IMG/VR virus record: IMGVR_UViG_3300006875_000096
Span: 1 to 29,992 of that record
DNA: 29,992 bases
Reading direction: 5' to 3' (one strand)
DNA from: a virus
Below, piece after piece: positions 4,534 through 29,992 of this stretch. The notes under the pieces were generated by a model that saw nothing but the letters and a program-made list of their open reading frames with translations, was not told the origin of the DNA and searched no databases. How positions within the stretch are numbered: the stretch's first letter is position 1; each line of letters starts with the position of its first letter. The translations under genes and the position numbers were made by a program.

Positions 4534-4694
4534 CACTTACCCATCCGTCGAGCGGCAGCATTGTCCACAAGGTTCGGGTATGGCCGCCCAGCTTTCTTCG
4601 CCCGAGACTTGGCAAACGCCTTCTGCTTCGGGGTGAGCGGAGTCGATTTCTTGTTCGGGTTCTTCGTATCCCAAAAGGCTTTTTTCTGCTTCAT
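4533..4694 (-). CDS. Tiny basic phage protein (53 aa)
   Basis: ATG at 4694 overlaps the TGA of the glycosyltransferase gene (ATGA), and the stop shares a base with the next ATG. The 53-aa product contains TPLTPKQKAFAKSRAKKAG followed by RPYPNLVDNAAARRMGK. A C-terminal GRPYPNLVDN segment of this kind recurs in small proteins of uncultured marine phages. It is strongly basic, with no membrane segment. The function is unknown. Confidence 0.7.
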   Translation of the reverse strand: MKQKKAFWDTKNPNKKSTPLTPKQKAFAKSRAKKAGRPYPNLVDNAAARRMGK

Positions 4695-5782
4695 GCGACC
4701 TCCACGACACCTGCATCGTACAACACTTGATACTGACCGTCGGTTATTTTCATTTCTTGCCCCTTGGCCATGCGGATTCGGGCGTTCCCGATGGTGGCAT
4801 CTATCGGTTTAGTTGCCCGCACCGGCAACATGACAGGCAGATCCTGCACCGTGGCTGTGGGCAACTTGTGTCCTTTGGGGACAGCCGACACCAGTTGATC
4901 CACAGCCCGTCCCCAAGAAAACTGATCAACTTTGGGGACATTCTTCATGGCCTGCTTGCGATACTTGGTGGAGTTGTCGTAATGATCCTTCATCAATTCG
5001 CACAACTCGTCCAGATTTGGCTCGTCCCAGTACCCGTAACTACTGCTCGGCCTCTTCTCACAATTTAGTTTTCCAGTTGCAAGATGTGAGAACTGGATCT
5101 GTCCGGTCGTCAGACTGACAATCGTCGGGATGCCCATAGCAATCGTCTGCAATGGCATCAGCCCGAAACCCTCGCCTCGAGCAGCGGCGATGAAACAGTC
5201 AGCCTCAGCAAACCAGCGGCATTTCTCGTCTTGGGTCATCCATTGGCGGTCAAAATAAATGTTTGGCCCGAGCGACCCAGTCGGGACATTACGGGCGTGA
5301 GGGGCAATCTTGATCCGTAGATCGGCATCGGGCAAGGCCAACCTGTTGAACGCCTCGACCACAACGTCCAGCCCTTTTCGCAGCCAGAGACTGCCGCCGG
5401 CGCGAAATTGGAATCGATCCACACGCGGGACATCCAGCGGATGGTACTCAGTCGTATTTACGCCGAGTGGTACGACGGTGGTAATTGGATGCCACTTGCC
5501 AAACACTTCACGATCATGCTCATTGGGGACGATGACCTGGTCAAATAGATTCAACCCGAACCGAAAAACCGGTGGCAGTTCGGTCGTCTCCCACATCGTG
5601 AACAGAACACGATGCTGTCCTTTCAACGCTCGCTGGAACAACTGTGGGATGCCCATGTAGACAACAACCGATGCAGATTCGTCCAGCGTGACTGACGGCG
5701 GAACATGGTTGATAAACCCCTCGTACATTGCCCCGTAGCCGTATCGGCTATCGGTGATTCCCCTCCAATGTTGATAGTTCAT
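4691..5782 (-). CDS. GT-B fold glycosyltransferase (family 4-like)
   Basis: A 363-aa protein that would transfer a sugar from a nucleotide-sugar donor, with the acceptor unknown (DNA base, virion protein or host surface). The C-terminal Rossmann half carries the donor-site signature: LRKG at about 134-137 (phosphate contact), ADCFIAAARGEGFG at about 194-207, and PLQTIAMGIP. GT4 enzymes usually have an E-x7-E motif; here the first Glu is E204 but the second position is Gln (Q212). The N-terminal half includes VYMGIPQLF and VIVPNEHDREVF, typical of the acceptor domain, and the last 35 residues form an extra basic tail. It sits inside the structural operon with 4-nt overlaps on both sides, suggesting virion or surface glycosylation rather than metabolism. 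The family call is firm, the acceptor is not. Confidence 0.85.
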   Translation of the reverse strand: MNYQHWRGITDSRYGYGAMYEGFINHVPPSVTLDESASVVVYMGIPQLFQRALKGQHRVLFTMWETTELPPVFRFGLNLFDQVIVPNEHDREVFGKWHPITTVVPLGVNTTEYHPLDVPRVDRFQFRAGGSLWLRKGLDVVVEAFNRLALPDADLRIKIAPHARNVPTGSLGPNIYFDRQWMTQDEKCRWFAEADCFIAAARGEGFGLMPLQTIAMGIPTIVSLTTGQIQFSHLATGKLNCEKRPSSSYGYWDEPNLDELCELMKDHYDNSTKYRKQAMKNVPKVDQFSWGRAVDQLVSAVPKGHKLPTATVQDLPVMLPVRATKPIDATIGNARIRMAKGQEMKITDGQYQVLYDAGVVEVA

Positions 5783-6054
5783 TTGTCAGGCAGGATGCCA
5801 GTTTCTACTTGCCACGGTTCTTTCGCACGACGCTCCACTTCGGCGGCCCCATCGATTTTCTTTGGTTGCAGACCGTTCTGACGTAGACGTTTGTACGCCG
5901 GCATATCCTTGTGCCAGCCTCGTTCACGCTTGTTGATTTCATCAACAACCGCGCCGCGACTTGTCGTCGTATTTGCACCCATGCGGATGCCAGCAACCTT
6001 GCAACCAAAACAACCCTCCACGTCCAGGTCAGGATGCACTTCTTGATGTTTCAC
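5779..6054 (-). CDS. Small CxxC protein (91 aa), conserved phage hypothetical
   Basis: GTG at 6054 overlaps the stop of the 98-aa gene (GTGA), and its own stop overlaps the ATG of the glycosyltransferase. Near the N-terminus it has HPDLDVEGCFGCKVAGIRMG, a His and Cys arrangement resembling half of a zinc site, followed by a long charged helix with NKRERGWHKDMPAYKRLRQNG. I recall similar short proteins with the EGCFGCKVA signature in actinobacteriophages, where they have no assigned function. The ribosomal coupling to both neighbours supports it being real. Confidence 0.75.
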   Translation of the reverse strand: MKHQEVHPDLDVEGCFGCKVAGIRMGANTTTSRGAVVDEINKRERGWHKDMPAYKRLRQNGLQPKKIDGAAEVERRAKEPWQVETGILPDK

Positions 6055-6347
6055 GTTATGTAAGCCCCGTATCCAGCAGCAGTCAGGTCGGCGACCTCCT
6101 GCTCGTCCACTTCGATGTCGTGACCCCCATAGTAGACCTTGGCAATCAAGTCGGGATCGGATGGCTGGCCGTCGGTGTACGTCCCGTCAACAAGCTTGTA
6201 GATGTTGCGACCTCGAGCAGCGTTACGAATGTGGTAGCCGATCTGGTTGGCGAAACGTTCATCGAGGGAAAGTGGGAAGTTCCCACTCGGATCTTCTGGC
6301 AGTACGAATGCCACAAAGTTGTCGGTCGGTGGTCTGAATGTAGCCAT
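6051..6347 (-). CDS. 98-aa virion-type protein, paralogue of the repeat protein's C-terminus
   Basis: ATG at 6347 shares one base with the TAA of the 353-aa gene. The last 50 residues, from IYKLVDGTYT to LTAAGYGAYIT, align with the last 50 of the 353-aa neighbour at about 33 identical positions, including VYYGGHDI and the terminal LTAAGYGAYIT. This is an in-place gene duplication where only the C-terminal module is kept. The module reads as small and beta-rich and may be a fibre tip or attachment unit, which is inference. The N-terminal 48 residues are unrelated to the neighbour. Confidence 0.75.
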   Translation of the reverse strand: MATFRPPTDNFVAFVLPEDPSGNFPLSLDERFANQIGYHIRNAARGRNIYKLVDGTYTDGQPSDPDLIAKVYYGGHDIEVDEQEVADLTAAGYGAYIT

Positions 6348-21096: not shown

Positions 21097-23070
21097 CTAG
21101 ACAGCCAGCCACGTCGGTCGCCATTGACGCGGCGGTGCTTTCAGCGGACGCAACTGCGGTAGGTGCAACTCGGCAAACCAATGCGCCATGACAAGGTCAG
21201 TACCCCGCTTCTTGTCGCGGGTCCAGGTACACATCTCGTCCACAAGAGCCATCGTTTTCCAGTTCTCCACCATCGTCGGCAGCCGGATCGACCCTGAACG
21301 CCACAACGGAGGCAGCAAAGCCTCGACACCCAACGACTCGTCCAGCTTGTTCCGCGATGTGGTGTGCGGAATCACGTTCACTTGATGCAAAGCCTGCCAA
21401 CGACGCACGAAATCGTGGGCCAACAGATACCGCTGGGCCGCGTTGATCTCAATGATCCAATGGGTGATCGGGTAGCCCAAGTCAACAGACCGGTTCTGCC
21501 ACTCTTCCATGATCCCCGAATACTTCCCCGAAGCCACGTCGTAGCCCAACAACTCTTCGGCGGTCATCTTCGGACGCTCGAGGTCAATCAGATACCGCAG
21601 GTTCGTCTCGGGCTGGAACAGCCACCACTCAACACCCCAAAAGTTCTGGGCGGACGGGTCAACCGAAGCCACCGAAATGATCGGCGGATGCAGATACTGG
21701 GGGATGTGACCAGGTCGGCGGCCACGATCAATACAGCCTGGGTACTCAACACCGTCCTTGCCGACCCCACCCACCGCATGGACACGGTCGATCAAGGCTT
21801 CTTCGATGTCAATGTCCTCTTGCTGGTACACCACCCGAAACTTGTTCGGATTGGAGTGCCGAATGTATGACAGATCCTTCCACGACAAACGGAACGGATC
21901 CAACAACGGACCCTCTGGCCACGCCGGTGCGTCCTTACGCCGCGACTCAGGCCCAGTATCCAGTTCCTCGTAATACGCTTTGTAGACGATGTGGTGATAC
22001 TTCTGATGCTTGGTCGGTTCCCGCTCGGCCCGCTTCGACACATCCGTAACATCCGAACCGTCATACCCGTCCTCGTCTAGGTCGTCGTAGGTGTACTTCG
22101 CCAAACAATGGGCGTACAAGTCATTGCTCGAAAGACGCTGACCGATCACCACCAACAAACCACCTGGATCGACGCGGGCCTCGGCCATCGAATCCCACCG
22201 CTCGATCAGCTTGTCGCGGGAAGCAGAATCCTTCGCGTTCTCCGTCGTCGCAACGTCGTCATACAAACACAAGTCGGCGCGGTGACCAATGAACTCCGAA
22301 TCAATACCGTACGCGGCAACAGTCGGTTCCTTGTTGTCCAACCCACCGATATCCAACTGCTCGACAATGAACTCTTCGGCTCGCCACATGGAGCCGGCAG
22401 CAGCAGGCTTGAACCGCCCATAATCCGTAGCCAAACACCCCTCGGCATTCAGAGCCATACCCTTCTTCACTAACTCAGGGTCAGGCTTCAGAGGGTACGA
22501 CCGCTCGAGAGTTTCACGAATACGCCGCGAATACTGCTTCGCCAGTTTTTCTGTGTTCGACCCGATCAGCACACGGATCCCACGGTTGCGGACAATCGCC
22601 CACACAGCGACATCATGGAACAACGTGGACTTGCCAGCACCAGGCGGACAATTCAGAACAAGATGTTCCTTCTCCTGCGACTCCAAATACTGAACAATCT
22701 TGTACGCCGCTTCAACCTGCCACGGTGACGGGACACGACCGAGGTACACCCGTCGGAAATAGTCAAAATCCTCCAACCCCTTCTTTGCCCTAGTAGACAA
22801 CCGAGAAGCCGGAATAACAGGCGGCAGACCATCCTCCACCTCCTGCACAATCTTCAGCGCAGTACGGTTGTAGTCCTTCGCTTTCGCCTGCACCTCATCA
22901 AACTCAGCGATCTTCGCCTCAGCAACAGCTTTACGCTTCTGAGCATCCCAACGCTGACCCGTGTTGTAGTTGATCCCCGCAACCTTCGAGGACTCCTTGA
23001 TCGTCAAACCAGAAGCCCGAGCCTGCCAAAACCTCGCAACATCCTCAACCGGAACTTGTCTCTTGCCCAT
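21097..23070 (-). CDS. terL: Terminase large subunit with N-terminal helix-turn-helix
   Basis: The ATPase-nuclease motor that packages phage DNA. I prefer ATG 23070; a TTG four codons earlier is possible. Counting from the ATG, residues about 7-50 form a helix-turn-helix-like segment (VARFWQARASGLTIKESSKV then GINYNTGQRW), the kind of DNA-binding unit expected in a small terminase. Walker A is NCPPGAGKST at about 140-149, Walker B LCLYDD at about 267-272, and the RNase H-like nuclease begins with the conserved Asp in ASVDPSAQNFW near residue 471, with a further acidic site at INAAQRY in the C-terminal part. No separate small terminase gene is seen in the window. Confidence 0.92.
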   Translation of the reverse strand: MGKRQVPVEDVARFWQARASGLTIKESSKVAGINYNTGQRWDAQKRKAVAEAKIAEFDEVQAKAKDYNRTALKIVQEVEDGLPPVIPASRLSTRAKKGLEDFDYFRRVYLGRVPSPWQVEAAYKIVQYLESQEKEHLVLNCPPGAGKSTLFHDVAVWAIVRNRGIRVLIGSNTEKLAKQYSRRIRETLERSYPLKPDPELVKKGMALNAEGCLATDYGRFKPAAAGSMWRAEEFIVEQLDIGGLDNKEPTVAAYGIDSEFIGHRADLCLYDDVATTENAKDSASRDKLIERWDSMAEARVDPGGLLVVIGQRLSSNDLYAHCLAKYTYDDLDEDGYDGSDVTDVSKRAEREPTKHQKYHHIVYKAYYEELDTGPESRRKDAPAWPEGPLLDPFRLSWKDLSYIRHSNPNKFRVVYQQEDIDIEEALIDRVHAVGGVGKDGVEYPGCIDRGRRPGHIPQYLHPPIISVASVDPSAQNFWGVEWWLFQPETNLRYLIDLERPKMTAEELLGYDVASGKYSGIMEEWQNRSVDLGYPITHWIIEINAAQRYLLAHDFVRRWQALHQVNVIPHTTSRNKLDESLGVEALLPPLWRSGSIRLPTMVENWKTMALVDEMCTWTRDKKRGTDLVMAHWFAELHLPQLRPLKAPPRQWRPTWLAV

Positions 23071-23129
23071 CAGAAACCCCAATCGTAATACAGCACAATA
23101 CTCCGTTGTTATCCGCTAGCGTGGAAACC

Positions 23130-23681
23130 ATGAAACTTCTCAAACCAGCCACACTCATCACCTACCTTGCAACAATCCCCTTCGCCAACTGGCTCATCAG
23201 TAACGTCGGATCGCAACAATTCCCCAACGGCCCACACACAATACCAGTTGGCTTTGGCTACGCCGCTCCCAGCGGAGTTCTCGCCATCGGCATTGCGTTA
23301 TTCGCTCGAGATTTTGTTCAAGAAAATTACGGTCGAAAAATAACATTCGTCGCCATTGCGATCGGTGTCGCTCTTTCATACACAATCAACCCAGCAGTCG
23401 CCACAGCATCGGCAATAGCTTTCGGGATTAGCGAACTTGCAGACCTAACGATCTACACAACAATCCGCAAACGGAATATCGTTGCGGCAGTCACAATTTC
23501 TGGAATTATTGGTGGTATTGTTGATTCTCTTCTGTTCTTGCAAATCGCATTTGATTCAACGATGTTCTGGCAAGGACAAGTCATCGGCAAAACATACATG
23601 GCGATTTTGGGTGGAATCCTAATTTGGAGCGGACGTGGTTTATCTAACCGGATGTTTGCCGGCAAAACAGCACTTGCGTGA
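23130..23681 (+). CDS. VUT/YhhQ-family queuosine precursor transporter
   Basis: ATG at 23130 (183 aa) is preceded by GGAAA; an upstream in-frame TTG at 23106 is less likely. The protein is hydrophobic with about six membrane helices and resembles the VUT family (DUF165/COG1738) in its motifs: YAAPSGVLAIGIALFARDFV with downstream ENYGR, SAIAFGISELADLTIY, and SGIIGGIVDSLLFLQIAF, including the membrane-embedded D/E residues. The E. coli member YhhQ imports preQ0/preQ1, the 7-deazaguanine precursors of queuosine. The protein would sit in the host membrane. It is divergent from the terminase, overlaps the transglycosylase-like gene by 47 nt, and is clearly more AT-rich than its flanks, as expected for an acquired cassette. 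Confidence 0.85.
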   Translation: MKLLKPATLITYLATIPFANWLISNVGSQQFPNGPHTIPVGFGYAAPSGVLAIGIALFARDFVQENYGRKITFVAIAIGVALSYTINPAVATASAIAFGISELADLTIYTTIRKRNIVAAVTISGIIGGIVDSLLFLQIAFDSTMFWQGQVIGKTYMAILGGILIWSGRGLSNRMFAGKTALA

Positions 23682-24249
23682 AGCATTAGAACGTCACGGA
23701 ATTGGTCTGCTCGCAACACCTTATTCGCAAAGGTTGGTGCCAGACCAATGGATTTGGGCAGCAGACAACGGTTGTTTTGGCTGTAAATGGGACGAACAAA
23801 CTTGGCTACGTTGGCTTGATTCAAAGCCCCGCACAGCCCTTTTTGCCACAGTCCCAGATGTTGTCGCCAACCACATTGAAACTGTCAAGAGATGGCATCG
23901 ATACGGGAATCTGGTTCGTAGTATGGGCTTCAAAGCGGGATTCGTATTACAAGACGGAGCCAGAGAACTGCCCTGGGACGAAATGGATGCGCTATTTGTG
24001 GGTGGATCAACAGAATACAAACTGTCTGAAGAAGCCCACAATTTTGTTCAAGAAGCAAAACAACGCGGAAAATGGGTTCACATGGGTCGAGTGAATTCAA
24101 AACGCAGAATCGCAATAGCCCGCGAATGGGGATGCGACTCAGTTGACGGCACATTTCTTGCATTCGGCCCAGACATAAATACCCCAAAGCTCATCAAAAT
24201 GATGGAACCAGACCTACAACTTTCATTATTCAGAGATAGTCGCATCTGA
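23635..24249 (+). CDS. dpdA: DpdA-like 7-deazaguanine DNA transglycosylase
   Basis: GTG at 23635 with GGAG 7 nt upstream gives 204 aa. The protein retains the order of key residues of tRNA-guanine transglycosylase: D44 in ADNGCF (TGT DSGGF, acid/base Asp), D75 in VPDVV (base-binding Asp), Q106 in FVLQDG, G123-G124 in FVGG (substrate base pocket), and D171 in CDSVDGT (nucleophile, TGT MFDCV). It is about half the usual TGT length and lacks the four-ligand zinc site of tRNA enzymes, as expected for phage DpdA-type proteins that act on DNA. It would swap guanine in DNA for a 7-deazaguanine such as preQ0. Its partner is the transporter upstream. DNA specificity is inference; a tRNA target cannot be excluded. 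Confidence 0.82.
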   Translation: MVYLTGCLPAKQHLREALERHGIGLLATPYSQRLVPDQWIWAADNGCFGCKWDEQTWLRWLDSKPRTALFATVPDVVANHIETVKRWHRYGNLVRSMGFKAGFVLQDGARELPWDEMDALFVGGSTEYKLSEEAHNFVQEAKQRGKWVHMGRVNSKRRIAIAREWGCDSVDGTFLAFGPDINTPKLIKMMEPDLQLSLFRDSRI

Positions 24250-25160
24250 CATTTCAGGTCTGCTACCTTGCAGCCGCAATCGATCAAGACCTCACCGCTG
24301 GGAAGCAGGCGAGGCAAGCACGACCCTTACCCCACTCACAAAGCATGGGAAGTGGGATGGGTACAAGTGGCCGGTAACGGGGACCGCCCTCCCATGCACA
24401 AACGCCTGCAAGCGAACCTAGTACCGAGACAAAGAACGGAGACTTGCAGATACGTCGAGGGGGATGAGAAACAAAACGGTGTCGGCTAAAACTCTTGGTC
24501 ACGGCCACCGGTCACTAACTGTGACAAAGCGTGGGGGGGACTAAACAGCTGTGCCTGCAACTGGCCTGGTGGCTCCCGCCCTCGCTGCCGCTCGGTTGGG
24601 CTGACGCGCCGCTGACGCGGCTTGTCGGCAGAGAGGTGAGGTTGGATCGACCCACAAGCCAGACGCTGCGAGTGCCGGATTGTTGCACAGCCAAGTTGTA
24701 AACCCGACCCAGCCGTGTGACATTCCACGATGCGGAATAGCAACACATATCGGGAAGGAGTAATACCCCCTACCCGCCCGCGCGTGGCTCGGCAGACCCC
24801 CAGTCGAGAGGGTGCCGGCTCGCTCGTTTCTGCCCGCCCATAACAGCTCTTATGTAAAATGGCACGGTCGCTGACAAAACATTGCCCGAAATACCCCCCT
24901 CCCGCACCCCATACGGCCAAAAAACACCCCCCACCCTGGGCAAGTTCGACCCGCCCACCCGCTTGGCCGTCGGTCCCGCCTACGTTCTCACCGTCTCACC
25001 GACGTTCTCGCCCGCTATCCGGATCTTCGCACCGCTCGACCGAGCCACCAAGCCCCACCCCTAACCCAACCCGACCAACCCGCCAACCCTCTCAGCCCGC
25101 TGACACGCCCACACACGACCGAGCCAGAACCGCCGACCCACCTACCCCCACACAACAAGA
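24250..25160. other. Gene-free region of about 0.9 kb with multiple inverted repeats
   Basis: I find no frame here with convincing protein-like sequence or a matched ribosome site. The first part (24250-24760) holds several perfect 7-8 bp inverted repeats, some nested (24305-24409 and 24548-24691), a GCCGC-TGAC-GCGGC hairpin at 24608-24621 and the dyad GTCAC-TAACT-GTGAC at 24511-24525. The second part (24880-25140) is very C-rich on the plus strand, with repeated ACGTTCTC elements near 24983-25010. A minus-strand TTGTCA-17-CATAAG promoter-like pair lies at about 24850-24880. It could be a structured RNA, a control region or an origin; none is shown. Confidence 0.5.
24305..24409 (+). repeat. 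Nested inverted repeats forming a possible branched RNA structure
   Basis: GCAGGCG (24305-24311) pairs with CGCCTGC (24403-24409). Inside it GCATGGGA (24343-24350) pairs with TCCCATGC (24390-24397), and inside that GG-C-CGGT (24369-24375) pairs with ACCGCC (24383-24388) around a 7-nt loop. CTGCAAG (24406-24412) could instead pair with CTTGCAG at 24443-24449, an alternative fold. In a region this size several 7-bp matches are expected by chance, so the support is only moderate. Confidence 0.35.
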
Positions 25161-25188
25161 AACCCCCCCGCCCGAAGGCGAGAGGGTT
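25161..25188 (-). terminator. Rho-independent terminator of the accessory operon
   Basis: On the minus strand the arms 25177-25188 and 25161-25172 form a 12-bp stem (three G-T pairs) on a TTCG loop, followed by TCTTGTTG. It lies 27 nt after the stop of the 73-aa gene, the last gene of the operon that begins at 27624. Confidence 0.8.
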
Positions 25189-25190
25189 CC

Positions 25191-25213
25191 CCGTAGTTGT
25201 ATGACGTTACAGA
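25191..25213. repeat. Copy 1 of an imperfect direct repeat
   Basis: Starts CCGTAGTTG, then TATGAC and ends TTACAGA. It matches the element at 25449-25476 apart from a 5-nt gap and two substitutions. It lies between the stop of the 73-aa gene and the terminator. Confidence 0.45.
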
Positions 25214-25214
25214 A

Positions 25215-25436
25215 CTAGCACACTTGCCATGTCCACCCGTAGGTAACGAACTCACCCCCGCCGATGTCGTGGACCTGATCGGACACGTCTCCGAACTCTG
25301 CCCGCTCGCACTCTGCCACCAACGTGGCAACTTGCTCCGCCGTGAATACTGGCTGAACGAATCCGTTCCACGTCTCGCCCATGTTCAGCAAGTGCGAACA
25401 CTCAACCGTTAGCACGTCATCGATACAAACCTTCAT
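25215..25436 (-). CDS. Hypothetical protein (73 aa)
   Basis: ATG at 25436 is preceded by AAGGGGCAATAA, the same AAGGGG ribosome site used by several other genes of this region. The 73-aa product starts MKVCIDDVLTVECSHLL and has a helical middle FTAEQVATLVAECERAEF and a beta-like end GGGEFVTYGWTWQVC. It is acidic, with four Cys residues. No family is recognised. It has its own likely promoter, and the terminator follows, so it can be expressed as a single-gene unit. Confidence 0.65.
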   Translation of the reverse strand: MKVCIDDVLTVECSHLLNMGETWNGFVQPVFTAEQVATLVAECERAEFGDVSDQVHDIGGGEFVTYGWTWQVC

Positions 25437-25448
25437 TTATTGCCCCTT

Positions 25449-25476
25449 CCGTAGTTGGTATGTATGACAATACAGA
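25449..25476. repeat. Copy 2 of the imperfect direct repeat, in the promoter of the 73-aa gene
   Basis: Starts CCGTAGTTG and contains GTATGTATGACAATACAG. It overlaps the likely -10 box (25467-25472). Having a copy on each side of one small gene suggests a duplicated operator or promoter. Confidence 0.45.
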
Positions 25477-25496
25477 CGACCGCTACCACTAGTCAA
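25467..25496 (-). promoter_or_regulatory. Likely promoter of the 73-aa gene
   Basis: On the minus strand: -35 TTGACT (25491-25496), 18-bp spacer, -10 TATTGT (25467-25472), then the AAGGGG site and ATG at 25436. The -35 box overlaps the stop of the upstream 64-aa gene. Confidence 0.5.
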
Positions 25497-25683
25497 GTCT
25501 CACCCGATCAGACGACACCCACGCCCGACCCCGACCCTGGGCAGGCTCCACCAAGTAGTCAACCCGACCGAACACCCGCCGAGCGTCATGCACAACCACC
25601 CGCACCGAGAGAGGGACTCTGTCCGCCGTGAGATCGAGCAAACCACCCCGACCGATCACCGCTCCAAGTTCCGCCACCGTCAC
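25489..25683 (-). CDS. Hypothetical protein (64 aa)
   Basis: GTG at 25683 overlaps the TGA of the 155-aa gene (GTGA). The product has a short helix (MTVAELGAVIGRGG) followed by alternating beta-type strands with LSVRVVVHDARRVFGRVDYLV and a VSSDRVRLD end, the look of a small beta-barrel. No family is recognised. Codon use fits its neighbours. Confidence 0.6.
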   Translation of the reverse strand: MTVAELGAVIGRGGLLDLTADRVPLSVRVVVHDARRVFGRVDYLVEPAQGRGRAWVSSDRVRLD

Positions 25684-28124: not shown

Positions 28125-28620
28125 TCCTGCGAAACTGCACCAGCAAGGCATCACGCTTGGAGAAGTTGCAGGCTCGGCAACATGACTCGAGATTCCCCAC
28201 CGAATGACGGCCACCCTTAGCTATCGGGACACGGTGGTCGATGGTGTCAGCGGGCAGACCGCAGATGTAGCAGGGTCGCCGGCGCAGCTTGCGAATGTCG
28301 GCCTCGGTCACCAGAAACACCCCGTTTTCTTTCAGCCTGCGGTCACGTTTCATGCGTCCTGCATGAACCCGATCACGGTGTCGTTTGCGATACGCCGCCA
28401 TGTCAGCACGGATCTTGTCCCGATTCTCGGCCCGATACACCCGCTTGTATTCCTGACGCTCTTCACGATGCGTCTCGGCGTAGCGTCTAGCTTGCTCCCT
28501 CGAACGCTCCAAGTTCTGGGTCCGGTAAAGCCTCAAGTAGTGACGATTGCAGAGTCCCTTGCCCTTGGCGGGCAGGCTGCACTCGGATTCGCTGCAATTC
28601 CCTCGCCGCTTGCGCGTCAC
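28102..28620 (-). CDS. HNH endonuclease
   Basis: A 172-aa protein. Residues 9-31 carry CSESECSLPAKGKGLCNRHY, a Cys/His cluster common at the N-terminus of phage HNH proteins. Residues 35-100 are a long Arg/Lys/Glu helix, likely DNA binding. The nuclease core follows: CYICG (117-121), TIDHRVPIAKGG with the catalytic D128-H129, N143 in GNLESCC, and CNFSKRD with the second Cys pair. All core residues of the zinc-bound HNH fold are present. The first 44 codons overlap the 3' end of whiB by 134 nt in another frame, the sort of arrangement left by insertion of a homing-type endonuclease. It could also serve in packaging, but it is far from the terminase. Confidence 0.85.
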   Translation of the reverse strand: MTRKRRGNCSESECSLPAKGKGLCNRHYLRLYRTQNLERSREQARRYAETHREERQEYKRVYRAENRDKIRADMAAYRKRHRDRVHAGRMKRDRRLKENGVFLVTEADIRKLRRRPCYICGLPADTIDHRVPIAKGGRHSVGNLESCCRACNFSKRDALLVQFRRKRRSPAA

Positions 28621-28867
28621 GATCAGATTGTAGACCGCGCCGTTCCCTCGGTGTCAGGCCACCCCACATCCCGAACCTGCGGGGCTGCTCAAGTTCGTTC
28701 CGCATCGCCTGCTCGAGGCATTCTTTCTGCACCTCGCAGGTTTCGCACAAGGCTCGGGCCTCCCGAAACGCCACCCTGTCGCTGATCCCCACCAGGTCTG
28801 GGAAGAACACGGTGCCGGCAACCCCGACACAGTTCCCCCGACGCATCCATCTAGGTCTTTCGATCAT
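28487..28867 (-). CDS. WhiB-family iron-sulfur transcriptional regulator
   Basis: ATG at 28867 overlaps the TGA of the methyltransferase gene. The four cluster cysteines are C13, C41, C44 and C50 (C-x27-C-x2-C-x5-C), followed by the family's turn motif GMWGG (66-70) and LTPRERRGL. These bind a [4Fe-4S] cluster and the host sigma factor region 4 in characterised WhiB proteins. WhiB proteins usually end soon after the basic RRGL segment; here about 45 more residues continue into the HNH overlap and look unconserved. Phage WhiB proteins can reshape host transcription or block superinfection. This gene is the main evidence for an actinobacterial host. Confidence 0.9.
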   Translation of the reverse strand: MIERPRWMRRGNCVGVAGTVFFPDLVGISDRVAFREARALCETCEVQKECLEQAMRNELEQPRRFGMWGGLTPRERRGLQSDRDAQAARELQRIRVQPARQGQGTLQSSLLEALPDPELGAFEGAS

Positions 28868-29370: not shown

Positions 29371-29512
29371 CTTTTCCCCTTGCTTTCTTCCGCTGTTTCG
29401 TGTTCATCTGGTCATAACGCCGCGCGTTATGGCAGTCGCAGGCACAGAACGCCGTGTCCTCGACGGACCAGACGGTCAACGCCCGCGTGACTGTCCCGCA
29501 ATGCTCACACAT
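29351..29512 (-). CDS. Small Cys-rich protein (53 aa)
   Basis: ATG at 29512 overlaps the end of the cytosine methyltransferase by 8 nt, and the frame runs 20 nt into the next gene. The product begins MCEHCGTVTRALTVWS and has FCACDCHNARRYDQM in the middle, giving a CxxC plus CxCxCH pattern fit for a zinc-binding fold, then a basic tail (KQRKKARGKDE). Its short length, the coupled junctions and the Cys spacing support it. The role is unknown. Confidence 0.65.
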   Translation of the reverse strand: MCEHCGTVTRALTVWSVEDTAFCACDCHNARRYDQMNTKQRKKARGKDEVRIR

Positions 29513-29992
29513 CCGATTCAATTTTGTTGATCTGCTCGGCGATCCATTGCGCCACCGGCGAGGCTACACCGTTCCCGCACATCTTGTAGCGGGTCGTGTC
29601 GCTGTTCGTCTTACCGTCGGCTCGATGCAGGGTGTGGTCATCGGGCCAGCCCATGAGCCTCTCGCATTCGGTTGGTGTTAGTCGTCGTACCTGCATCGGT
29701 TGCCCTTCTGCCACAAACGGCACGTTGTTCCCTCCTGTACCCATGCGATTCTTTAGGCACGGTGTTATCTCGTCGTCGTACACTCGCACGTCATTGACCC
29801 GTGTCCCATCAAGAATCAAAATATGTGGCTCATTATCACCACGATGTGATTCTGCTCTCAAGGTAGGCACTACTCCTTCCCACGCACCGCCACCCAACCG
29901 AACCATTGTCCCTGGCTGGAACACAATGACAACCGTTGCCCGACTGTCGCCGGTGTTGTCGAATGCGTTCAAGGTTGGTGACACCCCCCCCC
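29505..29992 (-). CDS. DNA cytosine-5 methyltransferase, C-terminal part (5' end cut by window edge)
   Basis: The frame is open to the window edge; a GTG at 29984 is only an internal possibility. The visible 160 residues carry the C-terminal motifs of C5 methyltransferases: motif IX as RRLTPTECERLMGWPDD and motif X as MCGNGVASPVAQWIAEQI. The preceding part, with SPTLNAFD and VPTLRAESHRGDN repeats and ITPCLKNRMGTGG, resembles the variable target-recognition region. The catalytic PCQ/ENV motifs would lie beyond the edge, so activity cannot be judged. The gene adds to the restriction-evasion set of this region. The edge is a run of nine C, where an assembly break or a true frame error is possible. 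Confidence 0.82.
   Translation of the reverse strand, partial: GGVSPTLNAFDNTGDSRATVVIVFQPGTMVRLGGGAWEGVVPTLRAESHRGDNEPHILILDGTRVNDVRVYDDEITPCLKNRMGTGGNNVPFVAEGQPMQVRRLTPTECERLMGWPDDHTLHRADGKTNSDTTRYKMCGNGVASPVAQWIAEQINKIESDV

Follow-up and report, generated by a model that had tools for sequence, protein, structure and literature searches.

How does a phage that carries a putative enzyme for writing a 7-deazaguanine base into DNA, in a record without QueC, QueD or FolE, come by that base? The question is raised by IMGVR_UViG_3300006875_000096, a linear virus record of 29,992 bases that was analysed at its full length (the window), in which the gene for a VUT-family membrane protein (VUT) overlaps that for a short DpdA-like transglycosylase (DPD). 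A sequence-only reading had proposed that the infected cell takes up the base from its surroundings, or that the base is drawn from host queuosine metabolism, and that the phage inserts it without making it.

The gene pair and its phage context

With its genes for the terminase, portal, major head protein and tail, the record represents part of a tailed phage genome. Its WhiB-like regulator and its major head protein, whose nearest relatives are those of Streptomyces phages (44% identity), point to an actinobacterial host. Both reading frames of the pair were found where the sequence-only reading had placed them (Table 1); the program's list of open reading frames begins that of VUT earlier, at TTG 23106. 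The GTG start of DPD agrees with the starts of its homologues (MVYLTG or M-YLSG) and has GGAG 5 nt upstream. The overlap is of exactly the length first described, but the genes are separate and lie in different frames, so that "fused", as they had been called, was loose wording; in the ten nearest relatives the overlaps are 29–59 nt. In comparisons with two related loci (L020 and L023), substitutions fall mostly at third codon positions in both genes, which indicates that VUT and DPD are both real genes under purifying selection. The GC content of the pair is 0.48 (GC3 0.42–0.46) against 0.58 for the window and a GC3 of 0.64–0.78 for the structural genes tested, as expected for an acquired cassette.

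Family searches of the phage's own linear fragment gave no match for QueC, QueD or FolE, in agreement with the absence originally reported for the window. A search for tRNA genes found none within the window, and Rfam at gathering thresholds returned no match for the window or for nine related loci; thus no preQ1 riboswitch was seen.

Table 1. Positions of the gene pair, of other features of the window and of selected features in related loci
Feature	Record	Position	Strand	Remarks
VUT-family (COG1738 / PF02592) membrane protein, 183 aa	Window	23130..23681	+	ATG 23130; Pfam Vut_1, phrog_4899
DPD, short DpdA-like transglycosylase, 204 aa	Window	23635..24249	+	GTG 23635; phrog_15826
VUT/DPD overlap, 47 nt, different frames	Window	23635..23681	+	GGAG ribosome-binding-like site just upstream of GTG
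Terminase large subunit, divergent neighbour	Window	21097..23082	-	phrog_38, E=1.4e-63; cassette begins 47 nt from annotated terminase start
WhiB-like regulator	Window	28487-28867		
Glycosyltransferase-like gene	Window	4691-5782	-	phrog_2170, E=1e-18; amid the structural genes
Partial DNA methyltransferase	Window	29505-29990	-	phrog_116, E=3e-23; right end of the window
Stretch 3' of the cassette, ~1.4 kb	Window	24250-25680		No clearly coding ORF; no Rfam match
QueF-family gene between VUT and DPD	L002	3625-3954		
Split DPD relative	phiG7 (L013)	5711-5995 and 5974-6303		Two frames; beside DNA polymerase
PAPS-reductase-like gene	L005	4694-5611		phrog_424
PAPS-reductase-like gene	L103	6557-7420		phrog_424
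PAPS-reductase-like gene	L114	6528-7397		phrog_424

Other features of the window are listed alongside the pair in Table 1. They include a glycosyltransferase-like gene and a partial DNA methyltransferase; because of the latter, a second modification of the DNA is probable in this phage. On the + strand, the skew towards C peaks at 25–28 kb.

DPD belongs to a short family distantly related to CAjan DpdA

DPD falls into phrog_15826 (E=1.4e-54), a family that has no annotated function in PHROGs and some members of which are named DpdA-like transglycosylase in phage records. It has no significant sequence match in Pfam, NCBIfam or the PDB; neither the Pfam DpdA family (PF23859) nor that of tRNA-guanine transglycosylase (TGT, PF01702) matches it, and CAjan-type DpdA is likewise without a Pfam match. 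Comparison of the DPD family profile with one of CAjan-type DpdA, the first row of which is 99.7% identical to CAjan DpdA, gave 93.6% in hhalign (E 2e-7) with 12% identity in the profile alignment. Judged from these profiles, DPD is a distant homologue of the experimentally tested CAjan DpdA, deletion of which removes both the modification and the resistance to restriction (PMC6884629). Neither the DPD profile nor the CAjan-type profile gave a significant hhalign match to cellular TGT and, as the latter fails too, the failure of DPD is not counted against its assignment as a DpdA. In the HMM comparison suggested at the outset, DPD thus matched one DpdA subfamily and gave no significant match to TGT.

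The AF2 model of DPD (pLDDT 93.7) is a TIM barrel. In Foldseek the TGT structure 2pot ranks second (E 2.4e-5), and TGTs dominate the best PDB matches, the PDB being rich in TGT entries; VIA aligns the model with TGT at Z 14.4 and 15% identity, with pyruvate kinase barrels tying. Among viral structures in BFVD, the commonest name of the matches is queuine tRNA-ribosyltransferase. Structural matches to ribulose-phosphate epimerase and pyruvate kinase were judged to reflect generic TIM-barrel similarity. The structural comparisons thus placed TGT among the best matches, with other TIM barrels tying.

Seven residues of DPD (D44, D75, Q106, G123, G124, H149 and D171) are invariant in 56 sequences, and three of these (D44, H149 and D171) align in the profile comparison with D63, H187 and D206 of CAjan-type DpdA. 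From motif and residue order we infer a likely equivalence of the catalytic residues to D102/D280 of Zymomonas mobilis TGT. A tRNA TGT has a zinc site, and bacterial TGTs are about 350–380 aa long; DPD, at 204 aa, falls short of this length, and no conserved Cys/His zinc-binding cluster occurs in the 56 family sequences, which speaks against a tRNA TGT. Taken together, the CAjan-type profile match, the TIM-barrel fold and the invariant residues bear out the description of DPD as a DpdA-like transglycosylase, and its predicted reaction is the replacement of guanine in DNA by the imported base. A scan of viral contigs with the single DPD protein returned no match; a search of IMG/VR with an alignment as the query yielded 463 relatives.

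VUT is a family member below the ortholog cut-off

VUT passes Pfam Vut_1 (41.9 bits, cut-off 27.2) and matches phrog_4899 (E=4.8e-34), but scores 38.4 bits against TIGR00697, the queuosine precursor transporter equivalog, for which the cut-off is 50.95 bits. The family half of its first label, "YhhQ/VUT-type transporter", is upheld and the ortholog half is not: on these scores VUT is a member of the VUT family that we do not file as a YhhQ ortholog, and its substrate could differ. Its AF2 model (pLDDT 90.5) is a multi-helix integral membrane protein with a fold like that of ECF S-components. ECF-type transporter components, S-components in almost every case, occupy the top 14 rows of its VIA list, with RibU (3p5n, Z 9.2) the best match. 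E. coli YhhQ transports preQ0, and COG1738 may contain subfamilies with other substrates (PMC5372724). By analogy with E. coli YhhQ, and from the genes that accompany it, VUT would import a 7-deazaguanine base, most likely preQ0.

VUT and synthesis genes alternate around DPD

The co-occurrence of the two genes was examined in 118 dereplicated DPD loci from viral contigs, phages and bacterial genomes (Escherichia phage phiG7, in which DPD is split, was left out). In 64 of these loci VUT is no more than 1 kb from DPD, and in 8 QueC is present; no locus has both, and 46 have neither nearby. The pair is thus conserved across many phages, and none of the 64 loci that hold it contains QueC. The exclusion of VUT and QueC has a Fisher p of 0.0014 without phylogenetic correction, and a phylogenetic independent-pairs test provided just 4 supported pairs, too few to decide. 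When 41 whole records were searched, QueC, QueD and the phrog_887 DpdA were absent from all 20 with VUT and DPD, some of these 20 being near-copies of one another.

VUT comes first in 58 of the 64 paired loci and the enzyme first in the other 6. The DPD tree requires 6 changes in the Que label and 4 in gene order, which indicates that the association between VUT and DPD was formed or rearranged repeatedly. The supported group that contains the DPD of the window comprises 10 rows, each of them with VUT. A chromosomal clade from Nocardia, Nonomuraea and relatives has neither VUT nor QueC nearby (L113, L115, L130, L137, L139, L140, L143-L146, L149, L150 and L156).

DPD is the only recognised transglycosylase in three records with QueC (G006, G022 and G023), so that next to synthesis genes it stands in for dpdA, and in several records it is the only one alongside queC, queD and queE. 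Sonali, Vibrio R29Z, phiG7 and G018 carry DPD together with another dpdA and synthesis genes; because of these, DPD may have another role there. Phage phiG7, the only member of the DPD family with both VUT and QueC, has its VUT gene 4.6 kb away and also possesses a full dpdA, queC, queD and folE; its split DPD (Table 1) looks like a decayed second copy.

The transporter gene also adjoins dpdA genes of other subfamilies, namely phrog_887 in PEAT2, RHph_N3_2, Pam5, RHph_X2_30 and Flyfo Tbat1_6, and a PF23859-type dpdA in phiLM21; QueC and QueD are absent from all six. A PAPS-reductase-like gene (phrog_424) lies a few kb from DPD in many loci, in some of them directly overlapping it (examples in Table 1). 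In PADLOC these phrog_424 genes are weakly similar to BrxP and DndC, and their product could process the base further or constitute a second modification system.

The alternation can be followed at one genomic position. In Arbiter (Rosebushvirus), a close relative that stands for Rosebush in this comparison, dpdA-queC-queD-queE-folE lies directly before the terminase gene; in Rosebush about 28% of G is dPreQ0 (PMC6884629). Rhodococcus phage ReqiPine5, annotated as Rosebush-like across its structural genes, carries VUT and DPD beside TerL, from which a PAPS reductase gene separates them, and has no QueC or QueD.

Some cassettes include a QueF-family gene

In nine dereplicated loci (L002, L033, L035, L043, L049, L052, L072, L095 and L100) a QueF-family gene stands between VUT and DPD; PF14489 was over its cut-off in all three of those tested. 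Arthrobacter phage Aoka has such a gene in this position, gp39, annotated as hypothetical. The cassette genes share a spacing of Cys, Asp (+7) and His-Glu (+41/+42) that presumably fits the active site of B. subtilis QueF. As the known substrate of QueF is preQ0, the cassettes that bear it are tied to 7-deazaguanine chemistry, and they are predicted to yield dPreQ1 or dG+ rather than dPreQ0.

Host genomes and the source of the base

We searched 19 bacterial genomes that carry VUT and DPD, within the limits that draft assemblies set; a match to QueC was taken as strong at E<1e-20. A TGT match over the cut-off is missing in 17 of the 19, and a strong QueC is missing in 11 and present in 8. Such hosts would have no complete queuosine pathway to act as a source and no use for queuosine, and uptake from outside is favoured. 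Of the two sources first proposed, host queuosine metabolism has become the less likely for most relatives, given the 17 genomes without a TGT match. The scavenging claim itself has fared better: the 64 paired loci free of QueC, the nine cassettes with a QueF-family gene, the 20 whole records and the 11 genomes all support the view that a phage with VUT and DPD scavenges its base instead of making it.

Proposed mechanism and alternatives

We consider it probable that VUT and DPD form a minimal import-and-insert cassette through which an actinobacterial tailed phage modifies its DNA with a 7-deazaguanine, and which replaces de novo synthesis. VUT would supply the infected or lysogenic cell with external preQ0 (or preQ1), and DPD would swap guanine in the phage DNA for the imported base in a TGT-type reaction that uses the conserved Asp pair. 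As the record contains no QueF gene, the product in this phage would probably be dPreQ0. The modified DNA would then resist host restriction enzymes, the most likely use of the modification, and the cassette would stand in for the FolE, QueD, QueE and QueC synthesis that relatives carry instead. What the analysis shows are the two genes, their families, the modelled fold, the invariant residues and the conserved linkage; the substrate and direction of transport, DNA as the target and the protective role are read from homology and gene context. Whether, more broadly, actinophages and related elements share a compact, exchangeable cassette of VUT and DPD, sometimes with a QueF-family gene, through which modification depends on an environmental base that the hosts neither make nor use, is a proposition to which we give even chances.

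Three other explanations deserve weighing. The base might come from a host pool of preQ0, with VUT topping up that pool or carrying another purine-like nutrient and being inessential to modification. The strong QueC in 8 of the 19 genomes would fit such an arrangement, as would the possible COG1738 subfamilies with other substrates (PMC5372724) and three phages in which VUT, not adjoining dpdA, occurs together with QueC; yet 11 of the 19 lack a strong QueC, VUT and QueC never coincide in the 118 loci, and in nine cassettes a gene of the family that acts on preQ0 sits between transporter and enzyme, all of which makes a host pool unlikely. DPD might alternatively act on tRNA, the phage importing a queuosine precursor and modifying its own or the host's tRNA to aid translation. 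Among the best PDB matches of DPD, TGT occurs most often, and some phages do carry queuosine-pathway genes without dpdA (PMC6884629). However, the profile match of DPD is to a phage DpdA, the protein is short and has no conserved zinc-binding cluster, the window holds no tRNA gene, and 17 of the 19 genomes, being without a TGT match, are probably without Q-modified tRNA; we therefore regard a role on tRNA as quite unlikely.

It is very unlikely that DPD is a divergent TIM barrel past transglycosylation, serving as a regulator or partner of some other modification enzyme, or that the pair is a degenerate remnant. Its identity to a tested DpdA is low; DPD occurs as a second copy next to a complete DpdA in Sonali, R29Z, phiG7 and G018, and in phiG7 it is broken across two frames. 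Against a loss of activity stand the residues Asp44, Asp75, Gln106, Gly123/124, His149 and Asp171, invariant across 56 divergent members, the codon-position pattern of purifying selection, and the several records in which DPD is the sole recognised transglycosylase beside queC, queD and queE. Import followed by insertion into DNA is thus the reading that we prefer.

If it is true, the phage modifies its genome with a base made by neither itself nor its host, and its resistance to restriction would hang on the surrounding microbial community. Should the broader, environmental-base proposition also hold, protection of the DNA would depend on a nutrient, and one enzyme would have been served by an import module or a synthesis module, each replacing the other repeatedly. 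The analysis assigns a likely function to the unannotated phrog_15826 and also to phrog_4899, the transporter family that accompanies it, and it predicts that the product depends on whether a cassette has the QueF-family gene. As relatives occur in laboratory phages of M. smegmatis and Arthrobacter, the cassette is directly testable.

Comparison with known systems

The idea of precursor uptake dates from Hutinet et al. (2019), who suggested that phages with DpdA only (their third group) may use host preQ0 or take up an exogenous precursor; they found phage YhhQ homologues, which did not correlate with any phage group, and Orion, which carries DpdA only, lacked the modification when grown in culture (PMC6884629). 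The present analysis adds a conserved cassette of VUT and DPD that alternates with synthesis genes, and with it a sequence-based answer to the 2019 question of where DpdA-only phages obtain their base. No description of the phage cassette, of its QueF-family form or of the alternation was found in the literature, of which coverage was partial, so that prior publication is possible. Like the DpdA-only phages, the present phage has a dpdA-type gene without genes for preQ0 synthesis. It differs in having a transporter gene that overlaps with the dpdA-like one and in that the enzyme belongs to a shorter family (phrog_15826); moreover, YhhQ was uncorrelated with the phage groups there, whereas VUT alternates with QueC in the DPD family.

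In bacteria, YhhQ is found in about 9% of dpd islands (PMC11888242), which resemble the cassette in holding 7-deazaguanine DNA-modification genes near a preQ0 transporter gene. Those islands comprise dpdA-B-C, often with a restriction operon (dpdD-K), in contrast to a two-gene phage cassette, neither protein of which has a PADLOC match. The genes annotated as 'DpdA-like tRNA-guanine transglycosylase' by SEA-PHAGES (Fishburnevirus, Aoka and Sonali) are homologues of DPD with 43–46% identity, and in Fishburnevirus and Aoka VUT lies immediately or one gene upstream. In the Fishburnevirus and Aoka records, unlike here, the transporter is annotated as a hypothetical protein or a membrane protein; in Aoka, the QueF-family gene in the middle is called hypothetical. 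The preQ0 operon of Rosebush and Arbiter shares with the cassette both the proposed end product, a 7-deazaguanine in DNA, and the position beside the terminase, but there the base is synthesized, whereas here it would be imported and inserted by an enzyme of a different dpdA subfamily.
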